Part shown: positions 21,689 through 39,497 of the stretch, one piece after another
Layout of the letters: each line of letters begins with the position of its first letter
How positions within the stretch are numbered: position 1 is the first letter of the stretch
DNA from: Chloroflexota bacterium
Lineage (GTDB): Bacteria > Chloroflexota > Anaerolineae > Aggregatilineales > Phototrophicaceae
DNA: 63,050 nt
Assembly: GCA_026706455.1 (NCBI GenBank)
Contig: JAPOYS010000090.1
Location: 1 to 63,050 of the forward strand
Direction of reading: 5' to 3'
Program-made: the position numbers and the translations under genes
Notes under the pieces: generated by a model
The model's database searches: none
Told to the model about the DNA's origin: nothing
Seen by the model: the letters and a program-made list of their open reading frames with translations, nothing else

Positions 21689-22930
21689 TTAGTCATCAAT
21701 CAGGATTATCCGGGGCTTGCGCAGCCAAAAGCCGAGCGCATAGGTCAATATCCCGGCCGCGACCGCTAGCAGGCAGATGATCCAAACGACGGTAAGCGGC
21801 AGCAGCAGCTCCCGCAGAGCCTCCGCGTCTACGATGCCGACTCGGCGCAGGTAGATTTCCACGACGCCGCGGCCTGCTTGCGTGATAGCCGCCAGACCGA
21901 CGCCAAAGACCATCAGCCAGAGCGGCGTATAACCGGTCACGCGCTGGTTGTCGCCGCGCAGGGTCGACGCCGCCTCATTGACAAACCCCAACACGATCGC
22001 CAGCAGCGCCCAGCGAGCCAGCCAATCCTGAGCGGCAGCCAGGTCGGTCCCGCGCATCGCCGCATTGATCGCCGGCTGGCTGCTGAGCGTTCCCAGGAAG
22101 CCGCCGCCGACCAGCCAGAACAGGGTCGCCAGCGCGATCCAGTGGGTCGCCAGCGTCGCGTTCTCGTTCCGGCTAGCGAGCGCGCGGTAGCTGTGCCCAG
22201 CCAGGATCATATAGCAGAGCGGGACGAGCGCAGCCGCGCCGACGGCGATGACCGGCGGCAGTCCCAGGCGTCCCAGGCTGATCAGCCCGCCGGCGAGGAA
22301 TACCAGCACTGCCACAATACGCAGGCCCTCTTGCAACCATTCGTCATCGACCCGGCTATAGCGCCGCATCAGCCAAAACATGACGCTCAGCCCGGCGATG
22401 GGGTAGGCGACCTGGATGCGAAAAGCGCGCGCCGCGTCGAGCGCCTGGCCCGCGAGCGGCTGCGCCCCGAGAAAGCTGACGGCGATGAGCAGCAAGCCAA
22501 TCTGCCAGACGCGCAAAAAAACGGATGTCTCTCCACGGCGGTAGCTGGCCGCCAGCGCAATGAGCGCGAGAAACGCGGCTGCCAACTCCAGCGCTCCCGC
22601 AAAATCAAAGGGAGTGAGGGTGAGCGATGCGATGACCAGCGCCGTCCAGAGCCGCCCCAGCCACGGCGCCCGTTCGACGCTCAGTTCGGCGCCCGCCAGC
22701 ATGATGCCAGCGCTGATCAACCCGCCGAGCGTGACCAGCTCGAATAGTCGCCGCGTGGCTTGGCTAAGCGTCGACTGCTCGGCGACATCCGCGAGCGGAC
22801 TCGCCGGCAACTGGGTTAATGCGGAGAAGCAGAAGCCGACGCCAACGATGACGAGCAGCAGCACGATTCGCGTCAGCAGGCGATAGAGCGCCAGCCCCCG
22901 CCGCGATAGCTGAATACCGCCGCGCCTCAT
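21689..22930 (-). CDS. Polytopic membrane protein of unknown function
   Basis: A 413-residue protein with about twelve hydrophobic segments and short charged loops. The arrangement, with a GTLSSQPAIN segment followed by WLARWALLAIVLGFVNEA, faintly resembles haem-copper oxidase subunit I-like proteins. I cannot identify the histidine ligands, so no function is assigned. It starts inside the stop codon of the upstream GT-C gene (overlap 22927-22930), so the two are co-translated. Confidence 0.65.
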   Translation of the reverse strand: MRRGGIQLSRRGLALYRLLTRIVLLLVIVGVGFCFSALTQLPASPLADVAEQSTLSQATRRLFELVTLGGLISAGIMLAGAELSVERAPWLGRLWTALVIASLTLTPFDFAGALELAAAFLALIALAASYRRGETSVFLRVWQIGLLLIAVSFLGAQPLAGQALDAARAFRIQVAYPIAGLSVMFWLMRRYSRVDDEWLQEGLRIVAVLVFLAGGLISLGRLGLPPVIAVGAAALVPLCYMILAGHSYRALASRNENATLATHWIALATLFWLVGGGFLGTLSSQPAINAAMRGTDLAAAQDWLARWALLAIVLGFVNEAASTLRGDNQRVTGYTPLWLMVFGVGLAAITQAGRGVVEIYLRRVGIVDAEALRELLLPLTVVWIICLLAVAAGILTYALGFWLRKPRIILIDD

Positions 22931-24396
22931 TCGCTTCCGCGCTTCAGCCGATAAACCGCCGCCGCGCCATGATCGAAGATCTCGGCCGTCTCGAAAGCCA
23001 ATTCATAGCGCGCCTCGACAATTGCTAGCAAGCGCCCGATGCCCGGCTGTCCCGCCGGCGTCAAGTCGGGGAAGACGATGATCCAGGTCGGCGGCGCGTC
23101 TTCCCATTCCTCCGTCAGCGTCCGCAGCACGCGATCGGGCCTAAAATACCAGCGCCAGCCTTTGACCCAGAGGCCCGGCGGGAGCAGGCCCGTCAGCGGA
23201 TGCAGTTGCGGCGTGCTGTCGGTTTCGGGCAGGACGAAAAGCGTATCACCGGCGTCCGCTCGCTTGCGGAGCTCAGCCGCCAGCGGACGGAACTCGTCGT
23301 AGGCGAGGATTGCGCCCGCGCCCACCGGCGTCGGCAAATAACTGACGGCGCCCGTCCAAAGCCAGCCGAGACCGCCGGCAAAGAGCAAACCGGCCAGGGC
23401 GGCGCGAGGCGCGTCCCAAGCCGGGCGATCGGCGAGCGGCGGCAATATCCGCGCCAGAACGACGCCCGACATGGCGGCCGCCAAGGGCAGGTGCGCCATG
23501 ACGTGGTTTTCGCCGACGCGCGGATAAAGCAGCGCCAGCGTCGACAGCCAGAATGCAACAAGGATGAGCTGCCGCCTATCGCCCCGCAGCGCGAGCGCGG
23601 CGAAGGGGAAGACGAGCGCGTTGCTCACCAGCAGCTTGCGGAACAAATCGCCATCGAGCGGCACGCCCTCCATCGCGCCGCTGAGATTGAAAGTCCAATT
23701 CCAGAATATGTAGCTTTCGAGCAGCCCCGCCCCCCATAAGGCGATCCATTGCAGCAGCGGCAGGGCGAGCGCGGCGGCTGCGTAAATCAGGACCGAGCGC
23801 CGCCCTTCGCTCAGAAGCAGCCAGGCGCCCATCAATACGAGGGGCAGCCAAGCATGTTGCTTGAATAGCGTCGCCGCGCCCATCAGCAAGCCGGCGACTG
23901 CGATATGCCCCGCGGTTCGGCGCTCATGATCGCGGCAATACGCGACAAGCGCGCCCAAAACGCAGAGCGCCAGCAGCGTGTCGAAATAGAGCAGCACATT
24001 GCCATAGACCGGCACCCACCAGGCATAGGCGGCCGCGCCGAGCAAACCCGCCCATTCATCGTCCGCCACTTGCTTCGCAAGCAGAAACACCAGCGCGGTT
24101 GATGCGATTACCAGCAGGATGTTGAGCATCTTGACGAGGGCGCCCGGGTCGATGTCGATGAGCGCGATGGCGGCCGCCGCCAGCAGCGAGCTGCCGGGAG
24201 CGTGCTGTTCCCAGATGTCGCCGAAGAGCGTCATGCCCTGATTCATCATCCAGGGGATGGCGACTTGACCCGAATGGGCGGCCGGCGCCAGCCAAAACAG
24301 GTGCGTGAGGATTTGCAGGTTGAGCAGGGCGACAAGCAGGCGGCGCGGCAAGGCGGCCTCCCCTTTGTGGCAATGCGAGCGTCGAGCCTGGTTCAT
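22927..24396 (-). CDS. GT39/ArnT-like membrane glycosyltransferase
   Basis: A 489-residue membrane protein with a GT-C architecture: N-terminal helix, a first outer loop with DIWEQHAPGSSLL (the family's acidic D/E plus Q-x-P-G pattern), then about ten helices and a soluble C-terminal domain of about 130 residues. Such enzymes move a sugar from a polyprenyl-phosphate carrier to lipid or protein outside the membrane. First gene of a two-gene unit with the polytopic protein downstream. Donor and acceptor unknown. Confidence 0.75.
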   Translation of the reverse strand: MNQARRSHCHKGEAALPRRLLVALLNLQILTHLFWLAPAAHSGQVAIPWMMNQGMTLFGDIWEQHAPGSSLLAAAAIALIDIDPGALVKMLNILLVIASTALVFLLAKQVADDEWAGLLGAAAYAWWVPVYGNVLLYFDTLLALCVLGALVAYCRDHERRTAGHIAVAGLLMGAATLFKQHAWLPLVLMGAWLLLSEGRRSVLIYAAAALALPLLQWIALWGAGLLESYIFWNWTFNLSGAMEGVPLDGDLFRKLLVSNALVFPFAALALRGDRRQLILVAFWLSTLALLYPRVGENHVMAHLPLAAAMSGVVLARILPPLADRPAWDAPRAALAGLLFAGGLGWLWTGAVSYLPTPVGAGAILAYDEFRPLAAELRKRADAGDTLFVLPETDSTPQLHPLTGLLPPGLWVKGWRWYFRPDRVLRTLTEEWEDAPPTWIIVFPDLTPAGQPGIGRLLAIVEARYELAFETAEIFDHGAAAVYRLKRGSE

Positions 24397-25784: not shown

Positions 25785-27698
25785 CTAGTCCTGCGGGATA
25801 TGGTCGCGCCAGACCTTGAGAAACTCGCGCTTGAGCAGTTCGAAGCGGTCCAATAGAAATTCTTCAAAGCTATCCTTGGTTACAGGTCGGGGCAACATGC
25901 TAGCGGGACAGAGCAACATGATTTCATATTCGAGTAGCTGACGCGCTTGCTCTTCCTGCGTAATCTCCCCGCGTCGGCGCTTGTCCTGCAATAGCACGTC
26001 AAAGGTTTGTACATTGTGCCTCAACTCGCCGGCTTGCTTTAGCAGAGCCAGATTGCCAACAGTGTTTATCGGCCATTCGTCGCCTTCGACCATCTGCGAT
26101 TGAAGCAGCGCGACTGGCAGGATGTGCTCAACGTGATAAGACTTGGCTTTCGCCATCTTGTTTACAAAGATGTACTTCAGCAACAGATATTCAGGGCGCG
26201 AGTCTCGAATATGCCGTTTCGCCTCCTTTGAATGTACCAAGCTGACCTGGCTGTCGTAATACCAGTCGTCCAGCACTTGCTCCCACCGTTGTACTGTGGG
26301 TGGCGCGGCGTCCACATATCGCAGGCTTCTAACGGCGTCGAAGAGCTTGCTGTCGCCCGAGCCGCGCCAGTCATCATGCAGAATTTCGTATAGATAGAAC
26401 ATCGGTAGCTTCCGCTTCAGCTTGCGCCGGTCGGCTCGCCAATCGTCGTTGTCAGAAAGATCGCGTTTGCCATATTTCACCTGGAATGCGGTCGCAATCA
26501 TGGAAACAATCATCATCTCGCTGTGGTAGATTGGTCCTAGTTTGCGCCCATATTGCGGCATAGCGAGGACTGGCTTTAGTATGCCGTCAACGAAGCGAGT
26601 CGATTCCAGCAGGCAACGCTCCAATTCCGCCCAAGGCAAGTCGCCGATCTCTTGCGGCAGATTGGCCATCTCTTGCAGTCGTAGCCCCATGCAGGCCGTC
26701 AGCAGGTTGAATCCCGCCGAGCTCGGTCGGTCATCCTTGACCGGTTTGAAAAGCCTCGGGAATTTCTCCGCTAGATACTGGCCCAGCCCAAACAGATAAT
26801 CAAAAAGGGTGTAGGTTCGATTGCGACGCGACTCGTCGTCCGGCGCTTCTTCCGAGACGTCCAAAGTGAAGCCTTCATCTTCGAGCGTCTCATATTTTTT
26901 CCAGATTGCCTCGATTACTTCGGTGTTGGCAATAAGCTGACGATGATCTATCCATTGAGCAGCGTAGATCTCGTATCGGCTCAGCACAGTTCCTTTCGAG
27001 TTGAGCAATTCAAATACAGTTGGAAGCTCGGAAGAAGAGCCGCCGTAGATGAGAACCGGAATTTTCGCATTCAGCACCAATTTGACTTCGTTGCTGACGG
27101 CATCGAGAAAACCGCCAAGATAAGTCGTGAATTCTTGATTGCGGTTGAGTTCAAAGTAGAGGTCTCGATACAGAATAGAATCGGGCGAATATTTGAGTAC
27201 CTTCTCAATAAGCGCTTCTACCAAGTTTTCCGTTCGCCAGCCGTCACGGGCGTCGTAGCTCTTATTTCCCTTGACCCAGTCGACAATGGTCTGTCGAATT
27301 CTGTCTTTGTAGTCATCGCTTGATTTACTCAGGTGTTTGGCAATCGCGTCGACAAAATCATCTTCCAGGTCCGCCCGTGTGAAATACCCGTTCTGATATT
27401 CGACGTAGCTCTTGAGAGCTTGCGTTCGCTGCAAGCCGTCTATCAGGTTGTAGTATCGCATGCCGTCGGCGGCCGCCTGTCCTCGAGCGACATCCTCGTA
27501 AATTAGAATAGAACCAAATGGGAAGCCCTTCTTTATGGAGTCAATCAGATTCTTGCGTGTTGCTTGGCTCCATACCAGACGACGCTGAAACTCCGGGATT
27601 GTTACCCGGCTGTTGCCGGAAGGATTACTCGACACAGCGTCCATCAGTTTGCTTACAGGCCAAATGTCGATATCAACTGCATTTCGATAGGCGGGCAT
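25785..27698 (-). CDS. DUF262/HNH (GmrSD-like) nuclease
   Basis: A 637-residue two-domain protein. The N-terminal DUF262 domain shows IPEFQRRLVW and the nucleotide-handling motif DGLQRT (the usual DGQQR). The C-terminal DUF1524 domain carries the HNH-type motif HVEHILPVAL, followed by the WPINTVGNLALL segment that completes the metal site. This arrangement matches GmrSD-type type IV enzymes, which cut modified (for example glucosylated) phage DNA using NTP. It lies near a toxin-antitoxin pair, so this stretch resembles a small defence patch. It could instead target another modification. Confidence 0.83.
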   Translation of the reverse strand: MPAYRNAVDIDIWPVSKLMDAVSSNPSGNSRVTIPEFQRRLVWSQATRKNLIDSIKKGFPFGSILIYEDVARGQAAADGMRYYNLIDGLQRTQALKSYVEYQNGYFTRADLEDDFVDAIAKHLSKSSDDYKDRIRQTIVDWVKGNKSYDARDGWRTENLVEALIEKVLKYSPDSILYRDLYFELNRNQEFTTYLGGFLDAVSNEVKLVLNAKIPVLIYGGSSSELPTVFELLNSKGTVLSRYEIYAAQWIDHRQLIANTEVIEAIWKKYETLEDEGFTLDVSEEAPDDESRRNRTYTLFDYLFGLGQYLAEKFPRLFKPVKDDRPSSAGFNLLTACMGLRLQEMANLPQEIGDLPWAELERCLLESTRFVDGILKPVLAMPQYGRKLGPIYHSEMMIVSMIATAFQVKYGKRDLSDNDDWRADRRKLKRKLPMFYLYEILHDDWRGSGDSKLFDAVRSLRYVDAAPPTVQRWEQVLDDWYYDSQVSLVHSKEAKRHIRDSRPEYLLLKYIFVNKMAKAKSYHVEHILPVALLQSQMVEGDEWPINTVGNLALLKQAGELRHNVQTFDVLLQDKRRRGEITQEEQARQLLEYEIMLLCPASMLPRPVTKDSFEEFLLDRFELLKREFLKVWRDHIPQD

Positions 27699-27797: not shown

Positions 27798-27893
27798 CGG
27801 GAGTGCATGGGAGTCGAACCCACCAGCGCCTGCGCTGCGCAACCGCTCACCGATTTTGAAGACCGGGGCGTCCACCGGGACACATCCACCCCC
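27798..27893 (-). tRNA. selC: tRNA-Sec (UCA)
   Basis: Read on the minus strand, the anticodon loop is CTTCAAA with anticodon TCA, on a 5-bp stem CCGGT/ATCGG. The D-arm has a 6-bp stem (GTGTCC/GGACGC) with a tight loop, a feature special to tRNA-Sec. There is a long variable arm with AGCG/CGCT pairing, and a T-arm GTGGG-TTCGACT-CCCAT. The acceptor stem GGGGGTGG/GCACTCCC pairs at seven positions with one G-T wobble, but the eighth is G-G. A G73 discriminator is present and CCA is not encoded. Length is 96 nt. It decodes UGA as selenocysteine together with SelB, which is not in this window. Confidence 0.88.
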
Positions 27894-28406: not shown

Positions 28407-29093
28407 GTGGGCGCTTTGAAACTCGTCCTATTCGACATTGACGGCACGCTGCTCATCAGCCGCGGCATCGGGCGCGAAGCCAAGCGGCGCGCCATGCTGG
28501 AATGCTTCGGCAGGACCGGCGACCTGGACAATCACGTCTTCGGCGGCAAGACCGATTGGGGCATTGCCGCCGAGCTGCTTGCGCCCTACGGCATCACATC
28601 AGCCGAGGTCGGTCGGGCGATGCCAGGCTACGAGGCGCTGATGGCGCGCCACATGCGCGAGATCCGCGGCGACTACCGCGCCGACGCCCTCCCGCAGGCT
28701 TTGGAGCTGGTCTGCGCGCTGCGCGACCGCGAAGACGCCCTCGTCGGTTTGGTCACCGGCAATACGGGCAAGACGGCCGCCATCAAGTTGGAGATGGCCG
28801 GCTTCGATCCCGAATGGTTCGCGGTCGGCGCCTTTGGGCATGAATCGGCCGAGCGCGCGCATCTGACGCGGCTGGCGCTGGCGCGGGCGCAGGAGATTGC
28901 CGGGCGCGCGTTCAAAGCCGCGGACGTGATCGTGATCGGCGATACGCCGGCCGATATTGAGGCGGCGCGCGCGATTGACGCGGTCGCAGTCGCCGTCTGC
29001 ACCGGCTACGTTTCGCGCGAAGAATTGAGTTGCAGCGATCCTGATTTCTTGCTGGCCGATTTGAGCGCCTTTTTCGAACTGATTCAGATATGA
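28407..29093 (+). CDS. HAD-family hydrolase (phosphoglycolate phosphatase-like)
   Basis: A haloacid-dehalogenase-superfamily phosphatase with cap type I. Motif 1 is LFDIDGTLL with the nucleophile and acid Asp pair, motif 2 is GLVTGNTG (Thr), and the motif 4 acidic pair appears in VIVIGDTPADIEAA. The size (228) and motif spacing match phosphoglycolate phosphatase-like or beta-phosphoglucomutase-like enzymes. Substrate unknown. Confidence 0.86.
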   Translation: MGALKLVLFDIDGTLLISRGIGREAKRRAMLECFGRTGDLDNHVFGGKTDWGIAAELLAPYGITSAEVGRAMPGYEALMARHMREIRGDYRADALPQALELVCALRDREDALVGLVTGNTGKTAAIKLEMAGFDPEWFAVGAFGHESAERAHLTRLALARAQEIAGRAFKAADVIVIGDTPADIEAARAIDAVAVAVCTGYVSREELSCSDPDFLLADLSAFFELIQI

Positions 29094-30404: not shown

Positions 30405-31121
30405 TTGAACTCCGCGCGCATCCTGGTGATATTGCCGGCGCTGAATGAAGAGCGCAACATCGCCCGTACCGTGCGCGGCATTCGGCAACAACTGCCCGGC
30501 GCCGATCTCCTGGTCGTGAATGACGGCTCCAGCGACGACACGGCGGCGGTGGCGCGGGCGGCTGGCGCGCAATCGCTGGATCTCCCCTACAACCTGGGCA
30601 TTGGGGCGGCCGTGCAAGCCGGCTTCCAATTCGCTCGCGCGCATCAGTACGACATTGTGCTGCGCAATGACGGCGATGGCCAGCATGAGCCCGAAGCCAA
30701 TGCCGACCTGCTCCGCTGTCTGGAATCGACGGATGTCGATGTGGTCATCGGCTCCCGCTTCATTGACGCGCGCGGAGATTACGGCACGCCTCTACTGCGG
30801 CGGCTGGGCAGTGCCATCCTGGCGCGCTTGCTCACTCGGATCATCGGCCAGCGCGTCACCGACCCGACCTCGGGCTGCGCCGCCTTCAATCGCCGCGCCA
30901 TCGACCTATTCGCCCAGGCCTATCCCCACGATTATCCCGAGCCGGAAGCGATTCTGATGCTGCATCGCAGCGGTCTGCGCCAAATGGAAGCGCCCGTGCG
31001 CATGATCCCGCGTCAACATGGCGACTCGTCGATTACGCCCTTGCGCTCGGTCTATTACATGGTCAAAGTCATCCTGGCGATCTTGATTAACGTATTGCGC
31101 CGGAGCCGCGTAGATCAATAG
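30405..31121 (+). CDS. Glycosyltransferase family 2, polyprenyl-phosphate type
   Basis: A 238-residue DPM1/dolichol-phosphate-mannose-synthase-like GT2. ARILVILPALNEERNIARTV, the VNDGSSDDT segment and the metal motif DGDGQ (about residues 89-93) are all visible. A C-terminal hydrophobic helix may touch the membrane. Such enzymes load a sugar on a polyprenyl phosphate for GT-C transferases like those at 18438-24396. The TTG start lies 8 bases after GGGAGGG. Confidence 0.85.
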   Translation: MNSARILVILPALNEERNIARTVRGIRQQLPGADLLVVNDGSSDDTAAVARAAGAQSLDLPYNLGIGAAVQAGFQFARAHQYDIVLRNDGDGQHEPEANADLLRCLESTDVDVVIGSRFIDARGDYGTPLLRRLGSAILARLLTRIIGQRVTDPTSGCAAFNRRAIDLFAQAYPHDYPEPEAILMLHRSGLRQMEAPVRMIPRQHGDSSITPLRSVYYMVKVILAILINVLRRSRVDQ

Positions 31122-36180: not shown

Positions 36181-37110
36181 ATGACCGCAAAAGCCAAGGC
36201 GAAACCGGTCCAACTCGAAGCGGCTGATATGGTCAAGGCGCGGACTTTCGTCGGCGACGCCTGGAATCAGTTCCGCAAACACAAGCTGGCGATGATCGCC
36301 ATCGGCGTGCTGGCGGTGATCATCCTGGGTGTCCTGATCGGACCCCTTATCTGGACCTTGGATCCCGAGTACATTGACATCATCGACGCCTATCAGCTGT
36401 CGTCGCCGGAGCATCCCTGGGGCACGGACAGCCTGGGGCGCGATACGCTGGCGCGCGCGCTGCAGGGCGGGCGGGTCTCGCTGATGATCGGCGTGTCGGC
36501 CATGCTCGTATCGATCACCATCGGTACGGTCATCGGCTTGGCGTCGGGTTACTTCCGGCGTCTCGACAATCCGCTGATGCGCATGACCGATATTTTTATC
36601 GCCTTGCCGCAGTTGCCGCTGCTGCTGGTCTTGATGATGCTCTTCCGCGAGCCGCTGAAAGCTTCCTTCGGCGTTGAAGGCGGCGTCTTCATTTTGATGG
36701 TCTCCGTCATCGGCGGGCTGCAGTGGATGCCGACGGCGCGTCTCGTGCGCGGCGAAGTGCTGACCGTGAAATCGCGCGAGTTCATCACCGCCGCCACCGC
36801 GGTCGGCTCGCAGGACGGTCGGATTCTCGCCAGCCATATCCTGCCCAATGTGATGAGCCCGGTCATCGTCGCCGCCACCTTCAGCATCGCCAGCGCCATT
36901 ATCACCGAATCGGCGTTGTCCTTCCTCGGCTTGGGCTTCCCGCCCGACTTCCCGACCTGGGGGCGCCTGCTCTTTGACGGCAAGGATTACCTGACGATCA
37001 CCTGGACGCTGGTGTTCTGGCCCGGGCTCTTGATCTCGCTGACGGTGCTCTGCGTCAATTTCATCGGCGATGGTTTGCGCGACGCGCTGGATCCAAGGTT
37101 GCGGAAGTAA
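36181..37110 (+). CDS. Peptide-type ABC transporter permease, DppC-like
   Basis: A 309-residue permease of the DppC type: N-terminal cytosolic helix, first membrane helix, then the HPWGTDSLGRDTLARALQGGRVSL signature near residue 80. The EAA-type loop REFITAATAVGSQDGRILASHILPN is present. The C-terminus GDGLRDALDPRLRK is classic for the family. It forms the transport channel with the DppB-like protein. The selenoprotein gene begins 34 bases after its stop. Confidence 0.92.
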   Translation: MTAKAKAKPVQLEAADMVKARTFVGDAWNQFRKHKLAMIAIGVLAVIILGVLIGPLIWTLDPEYIDIIDAYQLSSPEHPWGTDSLGRDTLARALQGGRVSLMIGVSAMLVSITIGTVIGLASGYFRRLDNPLMRMTDIFIALPQLPLLLVLMMLFREPLKASFGVEGGVFILMVSVIGGLQWMPTARLVRGEVLTVKSREFITAATAVGSQDGRILASHILPNVMSPVIVAATFSIASAIITESALSFLGLGFPPDFPTWGRLLFDGKDYLTITWTLVFWPGLLISLTVLCVNFIGDGLRDALDPRLRK

Positions 37111-37144
37111 GCGCCGCTGCGAAGCATGTAGGCGAGGTCCGCCC

Positions 37145-37720
37145 ATGCCCTATATCAAACAGATCACAATCGACCAAGCCACGGGCTTGGTAAAGAAAGA
37201 ACTGGAAAAAGCGATTCAGCGCGCGGGCCGCGTCTGGAATATCGTGCAGATCATGTCGCTGAACGGGCGCGTGATGAAGTCCTCGATGGAGATGTACGGC
37301 GCGACCATGTTCGCCGAATCGCCCTTGACGCGCCGGCAACGCGAGATGCTGGCTGTCGTCGTCAGCAAAGTCAATCACTGCGTCTACTGAATTCGCTCTC
37401 ATGCGCAGGACCTCCGGGCTGAGGTTGACGAGTTGCCGGACGACGAGGCCGACGCCCTCGTCGAAGCCATCGCGCGCGATTGGCGGACGGCGTCGTTGAG
37501 CGCGGTCGATCGCGCCCTTTGCGCCTACGCCGAGAAGCTGACGCTCGCGCCCGCGGGCATGGGCGAGTCGGATGTGAAGGCGCTACGGGCGGCAGGCTTG
37601 GACGATATCGCCATTCACGACGCGACGCAGATCATCGGCTTCTTCAATTACATCAATCGCGTGGCCGATGCCTTGGGCGTGCAACCCGAGGATTTCGTCC
37701 GCCCCTGGGGCGAAGGCTGA
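37145..37720 (+). CDS. AhpD-like selenoprotein (CxxU)
   Basis: A 191-residue alkylhydroperoxidase/carboxymuconolactone-decarboxylase-fold protein containing selenocysteine. Reading from the ATG at 37145, the frame reaches the family's active-site region SKVNHCVY, meets an in-frame TGA at 37388-37390, and continues without interruption to 37720 as IRSHAQDLRAEV. This is exactly the AhpD motif CxxC-x3-H with the second Cys replaced by Sec: Cys79 and Sec82, with His86 after it. The C-terminal part (ALCAYAEKLT, ATQIIGFFNYINRVADALG) is the normal peroxidase-related domain end. A SECIS-like hairpin follows the TGA, and tRNA-Sec is in the window. Annotated naively, it would appear as two broken genes. 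The role is probably thiol-dependent peroxide reduction. It follows the DppC-like gene by 34 bases and may be cotranscribed. Confidence 0.93.
37388..37426 (+). promoter_or_regulatory. Selenocysteine codon and bacterial SECIS-like hairpin
   Basis: TGA at 37388-37390, then after 18 bases a 6-bp stem GACCTC (37409-37414) / GAGGTT (37421-37426, one G-U pair) with the loop CGGGCT. The loop lies 25-30 bases after the TGA and carries G in its second position, as expected for SelB-binding bacterial elements. Confidence 0.7.
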
Positions 37721-37823: not shown

Positions 37824-38702
37824 ATGAACTGCGGAGAAGTCAGCCAGAGTCAGGCGCAATTGGTCACGCGAATCTGCGCATACTTGCGAGAGATCCACCC
37901 GCAGGCGGAGGGCTTGGCGGCTTTGGGCGCGCGCTTCCATATCAGCCCGTATCATTTGCAGCGCACCTTCAAACGCGCAACCGGCATTTCGCCAAGGCAG
38001 TACGCCGCCGAATTGCGACTCAAGGAATTCAAGACGCAGCTGCGCGGCGGCCAGCGAGTCACGAAGGCCATCTACGGCGCCGGCTACAGCTCGTCGAGCC
38101 GGCTGTACGAAATGAGCGACCAAAAACTGGGCATGACACCGTCGACCTACAAGAAACTTGGCGCCGGCATGACCATCTTCTACAGCGCCGTGCCCTGCGT
38201 CATCGGGTATCTGCTGGTTGCTGTGACCGAGCGCGGCATCTGCAAGCTCAGCCTGGGCGACGCCCCGGAGCCGCTGATCGCCGATCTGGACGCCGAGTTC
38301 TCCCGTGCCGAGCGCATCCTCGATGACGATGGCGTCGGCTATTGGGTGGAGCGCATCATCGCTTTTCTCGAGGGCTGGCAGCCGGACTTGGATCTGCCGC
38401 TTGATATCCGCGCTACCGCCTTTCAACTGCGTGTCTGGGGCGAGCTGCAGGCGATTCCCGTTGGTGAGACGCGCAGCTACAGCGAGATCGCGTCCGCAAT
38501 CAGCCAGCCGAGCGCCGCGCGCGCCGTCGCCAATGCCTGCGCCAAAAATCCGGTCGCGCTCGTCATCCCCTGCCATCGCGTGATTCGCCTGGACAAGAGC
38601 CTGGGTGGCTACCGCTGGGGCGTCGAACGCAAGCGCGCCATCCTCGAGCGCGAACGCGTTTACCAGCGGCAGGATCGGTCGGCGGCCGAGTCCGATCGCT
38701 GA
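37824..38702 (+). CDS. AraC-HTH / O6-alkylguanine-DNA alkyltransferase fusion (Ada-like)
   Basis: A 292-residue protein combining an AraC-type helix-turn-helix (about residues 10-115, containing ARFHISPYHLQRTFKRATGIS and YGAGYSSSSRLYE) with a C-terminal alkyltransferase that repairs O6-methylguanine in DNA. The acceptor is Cys250 in IPCHRV, with the preceding helix NPVALV and the following LGGYRWGVERK loop intact. The N-terminal zinc methylphosphotriester domain of E. coli Ada is absent, so activation by self-methylation at that site is not possible. This is a common shorter Ada form. Confidence 0.88.
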   Translation: MNCGEVSQSQAQLVTRICAYLREIHPQAEGLAALGARFHISPYHLQRTFKRATGISPRQYAAELRLKEFKTQLRGGQRVTKAIYGAGYSSSSRLYEMSDQKLGMTPSTYKKLGAGMTIFYSAVPCVIGYLLVAVTERGICKLSLGDAPEPLIADLDAEFSRAERILDDDGVGYWVERIIAFLEGWQPDLDLPLDIRATAFQLRVWGELQAIPVGETRSYSEIASAISQPSAARAVANACAKNPVALVIPCHRVIRLDKSLGGYRWGVERKRAILERERVYQRQDRSAAESDR

Positions 38703-38816: not shown

Positions 38817-39497
38817 ATGTCCATCCGCAATCTGCACGTGCTGATACTCGTCAGCGTCGCCTATGTAGCCGCGCAGATGGTCGCGGACATTTCCAGCCTG
38901 CGCGATGTTGCGCTCTTCGGATTTAGCGTCAGCGCCTTCTCGATCGCCTATCCGCTGACTTTTACCTTGCGCGATATGGCGCATAAGCTGGCTGGACCGC
39001 AGGTCGCGCGGACGCTCATCATCGCCGCCGCCGCCGTCTACTTGATCGTGCAAGCGTTCTTCGCTCTCATCGCGGGCTTGCCGCCGGAAGTGACGCCGGA
39101 GGAGAGCGCCGCCCTCGGTCAATTGCTGACGCCTGAGTGGCGCTTCCTGCTGGCGGCTGTGGTCGCCTCGGTCTTGTCTCAGTTGGTCGACACCGAAGTC
39201 TACACGCGCTGGGTGAATCGCTTCGGGGGCGAGCATCAATGGGGGCGCGTGCTGGTCAGCAATCTGATCGGCATTCCGCTGGATCGCATCCTCTTCCTGC
39301 TGATCGCCTTCCTCGGCGCCAGGACGGGCGATGAGCTTGTCGCCGCCTTCATCGGCACGTCTATCGTGCGCCTCGTCTTCGGCATCATTTCGATACCGGG
39401 CATCTACCTGGTCGAGGAGCACTCGGAAGACTGGGTCCATATCACCGAAATTCGCCACAGCGATCCGCCGTCCTTCTCGCGGAAAAGGGAGGGGTAG
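38817..39497 (+). CDS. Queuosine precursor transporter (VUT/YhhQ family)
   Basis: A 226-residue integral membrane protein with about six helices. Members of the VUT family (E. coli YhhQ) import preQ0/preQ1, the base precursors of the tRNA modification queuosine. Family segments seen: FPLTF-like IAYPLTFTLRDMAHKLAG (the conserved D-x-x-x-x-x-G after helix 2), SQLVDTEVYTRW and NLIGIPLDRILFLLIAFLG. The position next to a DNA methyltransferase may be coincidence. A T-rich/G-rich junction follows. Confidence 0.85.
   Translation: MSIRNLHVLILVSVAYVAAQMVADISSLRDVALFGFSVSAFSIAYPLTFTLRDMAHKLAGPQVARTLIIAAAAVYLIVQAFFALIAGLPPEVTPEESAALGQLLTPEWRFLLAAVVASVLSQLVDTEVYTRWVNRFGGEHQWGRVLVSNLIGIPLDRILFLLIAFLGARTGDELVAAFIGTSIVRLVFGIISIPGIYLVEEHSEDWVHITEIRHSDPPSFSRKREG

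Follow-up and report, generated by a model that had tools for sequence, protein, structure and literature searches.

Positions 37145–37720 on the forward strand of the window, the 63,050-nucleotide stretch of Chloroflexota DNA that was analysed as a whole, very probably constitute one gene of the TIGR01926 family in which an in-frame TGA specifies selenocysteine and whose product is likely to be a selenium-dependent, peroxide-reducing enzyme. The frame begins with ATG at 37145, ends with a terminal TGA at 37718–37720 and encodes an AhpD-like protein of 191 residues when its single in-frame TGA is read through. This internal codon, codon 82 (37388–37390, forward strand), occupies the second-Cys position of a CxxC motif and, judged from the sequence, is predicted with near certainty to be read as selenocysteine. 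Selenocysteine is a well-supported reading because the family score, the selenocysteine machinery of the host, the conservation of the TGA, the restriction of this codon to TGA or Cys codons across the family and a constrained hairpin behind it all point the same way.

Because its active site contains a stop-type codon, the gene is divided into two pieces by standard gene calling; the mechanical list of open reading frames breaks it into 37070–37390 and 37433–37720. In a profile search, the read-through protein matched TIGR01926 with 151.1 bits over residues 3–183 (cut-off 81.8), whereas the separate halves scored 52.5 and 80.3 bits, both below the cut-off. Together with a TGA at the same codon in 32 of 32 orthologues, these scores bear out the claim of an earlier note on this DNA that one gene runs across the in-frame TGA. 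The joined protein also matched the Pfam CMD family (46.9 bits). Its match to the sestrin family PA26 fell below the cut-off of that family, and its score against NF041238 (AhpD-related (seleno)protein CFYUT) was 65.2 bits, under the 175-bit threshold. When the window was scanned by composition for in-frame TGA codons, four candidates emerged, and the three besides the AhpD-like gene lie antisense to other open reading frames.

The earlier note had also held that standard annotation would truncate the gene, and the protein databases agree. Among the 120 relatives listed (of 167), 94 align solely with the part past residue 82. The 26 listed relatives that cover residue 82 carry Trp (15), Cys (4), Ser (3), Arg, Ala or Leu (one each) or a gap (one). 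Automated gene calls thus lose this family, since most of the listed relatives are pieces that start past the selenocysteine or have Trp in its place.

Around codon 82 the protein reads H-C79-V-Y-[82]-I-R-S-H86, and Glu67 stands 12 residues ahead of Cys79. The C-x-x-U motif with a His four residues on, as the earlier note had described it, is therefore made up of Cys79, codon 82 and His86. Glu67, Cys79, Sec82 and His86 fit Glu-x11-Cys-x2-Cys/Sec-x3-His, which we take to be the AhpD-type active-site pattern. Conservation was read from 102 further loci of the family, comprising 26 TGA-bearing loci of the phylum, 44 loci in which no internal stop occurs, 13 named loci and 19 paralogues. Cys79 (37379–37381, forward strand), the predicted resolving residue, is Cys in 98 of these 102 loci and in all 58 with TGA. 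Glu67 (37343–37345, forward strand) and His86 (37400–37402, forward strand), the predicted members of an active-site relay, are conserved as Glu in 100 and as His in 101 of the 102 loci.

By analogy with characterized relatives, the enzyme itself probably reduces peroxides, at Sec82 with Cys79 resolving. The selenolate of Sec82, aided by Glu67 and His86, would attack the O–O bond of a peroxide; the resulting selenenic acid would be resolved by Cys79 to give a selenylsulfide, and the enzyme would then be reset by a thioredoxin- or lipoamide-type reductase. We infer both the substrate and the reductant of the predicted enzyme. Thioredoxin reductase and lipoamide dehydrogenase, candidate partners in this scheme, both score above cut-off in the source genome. 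Selenium usually gives higher reactivity at such a site. In the portions of the report on Deinococcus radiodurans that are available, a mutant lacking the AhpD-like protein DR1765 is sensitive to H2O2 and is complemented much less well by variants of the two cysteines of CxxC (PMC8945050).

A different main job for the selenoprotein is possible, at a clearly lower probability: it may serve chiefly as a thiol or selenol reductase that feeds a peroxiredoxin or an Ohr/OsmC protein, in the way that AhpD serves AhpC. AhpD is described, in sources available in part, as an electron donor to AhpC (and to OsmC in C. glutamicum) that is itself reduced via lipoamide proteins; the source genome holds nine AhpC-TSA matches in addition to the two reductases above cut-off. 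Against this role, none of the nine matches lies on the contig of the window, and the joined protein scores 21.9 bits with the AhpD family TIGR00777, far under its cut-off of 191.95. DR1765, too, is only 12% identical to the AhpD of Mycobacterium tuberculosis, according to the accessible part of the same report (PMC8945050). Direct peroxide reduction is retained as the proposed function. It is quite unlikely that the two selenocysteine-containing AhpD paralogues of the genus are specialized for a substrate other than simple peroxides, for example in a selenium-dependent reductive dehalogenation as in Bmp8; if they were, selenocysteine would have been kept for a reaction that Cys carries out too slowly.

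The TGA itself is conserved well beyond the window. An orthologue with exactly one internal TGA was found in 32 of the 34 genomes of the genus that were searched, which excludes a chance in-frame TGA, and codon 82, read from the DNA, is TGA in 32 of 32. These orthologues are 72–87% identical to the gene over the read-through. A separate scan of named genomes, many of them the same assemblies as in the genus set, gave 40 loci, of which 39 cover codon 82 and all 39 have TGA there; the remaining one (L070) lies at the end of a contig and holds residues 1–53 only. Named loci that are 72–86% identical to the gene bear the titles Chloroflexi, Chloroflexota, Anaerolineae or Anaerolineales, and the titles among the 40 also include Latescibacterota, Gemmatimonadota, Planctomycetota and Acidobacteria. 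One Acidobacteria-titled contig (L069) carries two AhpD-like TGA copies on opposite strands.

Family members with Cys in place of selenocysteine are common. The in-frame TGA aligns with the Cys of homologues, and codon 82 in the 102 further loci is TGA (58), TGC (36) or TGT (8), with no other codon; among the listed database relatives that cover the residue, Cys occurs in the 4 of 26 given above. The presence of TGC or TGT in 44 of 102 loci, and of a Cys relative (P0009) that is 52% identical to the read-through protein, would suit a reading in which the TGA either is a real stop in a pseudogene or stands for a mis-sequenced TGC or TGT in an ordinary Cys enzyme. This reading is highly improbable in view of the TGA in all 32 genus orthologues and all 39 covering named loci. 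A sequencing error is already refuted because the TGA recurs in independent assemblies, and a pseudogene is very unlikely given that 72–87% identity is kept over the read-through and that the codons of the hairpin are synonymously constrained. None of the three outcomes that the earlier note named as refuting its claim was seen: selA, selB and selD are present in the genome (see below), the homologues in close relatives do not all end at the TGA, and the TGA is no error. That this lineage decodes TGA as tryptophan, or as some other amino acid, is barely credible, because the Trp at residue 82 in 15 of the 26 covering relatives among the matches listed is best read as a TGA=Trp table applied by gene callers, the AhpD-like gene and three family-supported genes of the window (37824–38702, 22927–24396 and 28407–29093) end in TGA, the alternatives to TGA in the 102 loci are TGC and TGT and never TGG, and the genome has selA, selB, selD and tRNA-Sec.

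Selenocysteine at codon 82 is further consistent with the distribution of the family. A second TIGR01926 paralogue, 38–47% identical to the first and with one TGA in each copy, was found in 33 of the 34 genus genomes; the copy of the source genome itself (L071, G000:C42:62168-62716, reverse strand) is a likely selenoprotein gene. In a survey of 400 genomes sampled from the larger group of the phylum, at least 107 rows scored above the TIGR01926 cut-off, and by hand counts among the matches listed 57 have one internal TGA and 50 have none; one of the 57 carries a TAA as well. A tree of 93 rows, which has an arbitrary root and several long branches that meet, needs 8 changes of the Sec/Cys label, 7 of which well-supported branches make unavoidable; none of 500 label shuffles gave a number as low as 8. 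The clade of the window gene holds 30 rows, 29 with selenocysteine and one, P0009, with Cys. On this tree, selenocysteine and cysteine forms have replaced one another several times, for the most part inside a single phylum. Such exchange would make the family a suitable natural collection in which to ask what advantage an AhpD-type enzyme draws from selenium.

The machinery for selenocysteine insertion was looked for in the source genome (3.86 Mb in 189 contigs, 90.85% complete), as the earlier note had proposed, and selA (547.8 bits), selB (344.9 bits) and selD (375.6 bits) are all present, each above its cut-off. The selD gene (L030, G000:C158:6834-7769) is itself likely to be a selenoprotein gene, with an in-frame TGA in the motif CAGUASK. 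A tRNA-Sec gene with anticodon TCA lies in the window at 27799–27893 on the reverse strand (Rfam RF01852, 68.1 bits; also called by ARAGORN). Across the genus, selB scored above cut-off in all 22 genomes searched for it, and tRNA-Sec reached at least 64 bits in 31 of 34. The other three (G004, G005 and G009) gave weaker tRNA-Sec matches only, yet they contain TGA copies of the family and selB; because all three have selB, the weak matches are read as gaps in draft genomes. The tRNA-Sec gene is 9.3 kb from the AhpD-like gene in the window, and the two share a contig at a distance of 9–15 kb in 14 genus genomes including the source. This proximity apparently reflects a stable stretch of chromosome and not a selenium operon.

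Behind the TGA lies a predicted bacterial SECIS hairpin (37409–37426, forward strand), with the stem halves GACCTC and GAGGTT around the loop CGGGCT, which starts 24 nt past the TGA. SelB carrying Sec-tRNA(Sec) would bind this hairpin and decode the UGA. The sequence is near-invariant as GACCTC-CGKGCY-GAGGTY, with the loop 24 nt from the TGA. Codons +7 to +12 show the lowest synonymous diversity of 161 six-codon windows, at 0.191 where the median is 0.391. In a cruder count they rank sixth of 194 (0.191); the four windows at the ragged beginning of the alignment and window −5, which covers the CxxU motif (0.189), come before them. In 31 of 31 rows Leu+8 is CTC and Glu+11 is GAG, the only conserved Leu and Glu columns with a fixed codon; Val−9 is likewise fixed to one codon. 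All 42 rows have CGT (30) or CGG (12) at Arg+9, whereas the commonest Arg codon in these genes is CGC (298 of 458) and CGT makes up 36 of 458, a bias in the direction that the published loop preference G[G/U] suggests.

A 6-bp stem occurs at the fixed place in 32 of 32 genus rows and in 41 of 42 rows overall, against 13% of random synonymous recodings, or 3.9% when a G[G/U] loop is required as well; the row counts overstate the number of separate tests because the rows are related. When the placement is left loose, at least 6 bp arise in 59% of random synonymous recodings, so that such a search is not discriminating. The one row that breaks a stem pair is L066. The Acidobacteria-titled L069, which was left out of the 42-row alignment, is without this stem, and each of its two copies has a different strong hairpin with the loop 16–17 nt after the TGA.

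A published SECIS model, as given in the accessible part of a 2026 review, specifies a loop of 3–9 nt whose first two places include a G, a stem length of 4–16 bp, a spacing of 16–37 nt from the TGA and an energy of −7.5 kcal/mol or lower (PMC13188914). The hairpin of the window agrees with the loop, stem and spacing rules (6-nt loop CGGGCT, 6-bp stem, spacing 24). Stem energy alone reaches −7.5 kcal/mol in 37 of 42 rows, and the copy in the window, at −7.0, is just short of it. In a 48-nt fold of that copy a competing structure wins over the hairpin; among all rows the hairpin helix dominates 36 of 42 folds of this length, and with a 24-nt piece it dominates in all 42. When stretches of 66 and 45 nt after the TGA of the window copy were folded, they did not outdo shuffled sequences (z 0.66 and 0.08), and nine other rows gave z values of −0.14 to −2.06. 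Compensatory changes were absent from the six stem pairs, four of which never vary and two of which vary on one side; an outer seventh pair shows a single two-sided change and is disrupted in four rows. Counting covariation is uninformative here, since the stem hardly varies. The hairpin of the paralogue L071 differs in shape (CTCCGTC-AGTT-GAC-T-GGAG). Alignment columns 25–38 of the paralogue, counted with the TGA as 1–3, are invariant in the 19 of 19 copies fetched, and the GUC-AGUU-GAC helix dominates all 19 folds; 17 of these 19 hairpins fail a search that allows no bulge, because they contain a one-base bulge.

The gene stands between an OppC-type ABC permease gene (36181–37110, forward strand), which ends 34 nt ahead of the AhpD-like start, and an Ada-like gene (37824–38702, forward strand) for an AraC-type regulator/O6-methylguanine-DNA methyltransferase, its usual downstream neighbour in the genus. 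The placement after a peptide transporter operon that the earlier note described thus holds for the window, but operon linkage proved loose when compared across relatives: OppC is upstream in 7 of the 8 genus loci with 20 kb of flank, and the gap between OppC and the AhpD-like gene widens to about 3 kb in several. In one relative examined, the gap is filled by an MmeI-like restriction-modification methylase gene (L103:13988-16864). The Ada-like gene is the more constant neighbour, being downstream in 31 of 32 genus orthologue loci. None of twelve neighbours was found at the locus of G033 (L110) or at the loci compared from outside the genus. Elsewhere in the window, the protein encoded beside the tRNA-Sec gene (25785–27698, reverse strand) bears a GmrSD restriction endonuclease N-terminal domain, a family 2 glycosyltransferase gene occupies 30405–31121, and a queuosine-precursor-transporter-like gene (38817–39497) scores above its NCBIfam cut-off.

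The read-through protein is predicted with high confidence to adopt the AhpD fold (pLDDT 97.4), in a model built from a 27-row alignment with Cys substituted for selenocysteine. The best PDB match of the model is 6k40, AhpD of D. radiodurans (TM 0.86, 43% identity), which has the same fold and a Cys where the window protein has selenocysteine; position 82 falls on the CxxC motif's second Cys both in 6k40 and in D. geothermalis 2oyo, another protein with Cys instead of selenocysteine. The entry 6k40, a code that the accessible text of PMC8945050 does not print, is presumably DR1765. The resemblance to M. tuberculosis AhpD (1gu9) is confined to the AhpD core. Profile positions 60–102 correspond to chain residues 111–154, an offset of about 51 that would place Glu67, Cys79, Sec82 and His86 near residues 118, 130, 133 and 137. 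Residues 133 and 130 of that enzyme are presumably the attacking and resolving residues. The overall match to 1gu9 is poor (TM 0.46, E 0.032), 1gu9 has Cys and no selenocysteine, and the window protein falls below the TIGR00777 cut-off. The debrominase Bmp8 (6ohi) has a related fold (TM 0.71, 18% identity, profile E 3.3e-6) and, in the available part of its description, takes bromine off a pyrrole intermediate (PMC7918430).

AhpD-like selenoproteins with CxxU are already a known kind, because they appear in the surveys of 2005, 2006 and 2008 and in a 2026 review, each available in part. The Sargasso Sea paper of 2005 described 27 such sequences in COG2128 (PMC1088965), the 2006 genome survey two (PMC1794560), and the GOS paper of 2008 299 AhpD-like 1 and 70 AhpD-like 2 selenoproteins (PMC2398784); a table in the 2026 review names TIGR01926 with CxxU (PMC13188914). 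The description of the enzyme as unrecognized in the earlier note therefore has to be withdrawn for the kind. Among the matches listed, the open-licence literature held no mention of the window gene, its paralogue or their genus-wide spread, and the literature on selenoproteins of Chloroflexota and sponge bacteria held nothing on the window gene; a search of the open-licence literature for the TIGR01926 'peroxidase-related enzyme' with selenocysteine found no paper. Compared through their descriptions, the published proteins (COG2128/TIGR01926) share the family and the CxxU motif with the window protein. In contrast to that published set, the present one comes from one genus, with a defined hairpin, two selenocysteine paralogues and the selenocysteine machinery in the same genome. 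What is new here is the occurrence of two selenocysteine paralogues throughout a genus, together with the repeated exchange of selenocysteine and cysteine that the tree suggests.
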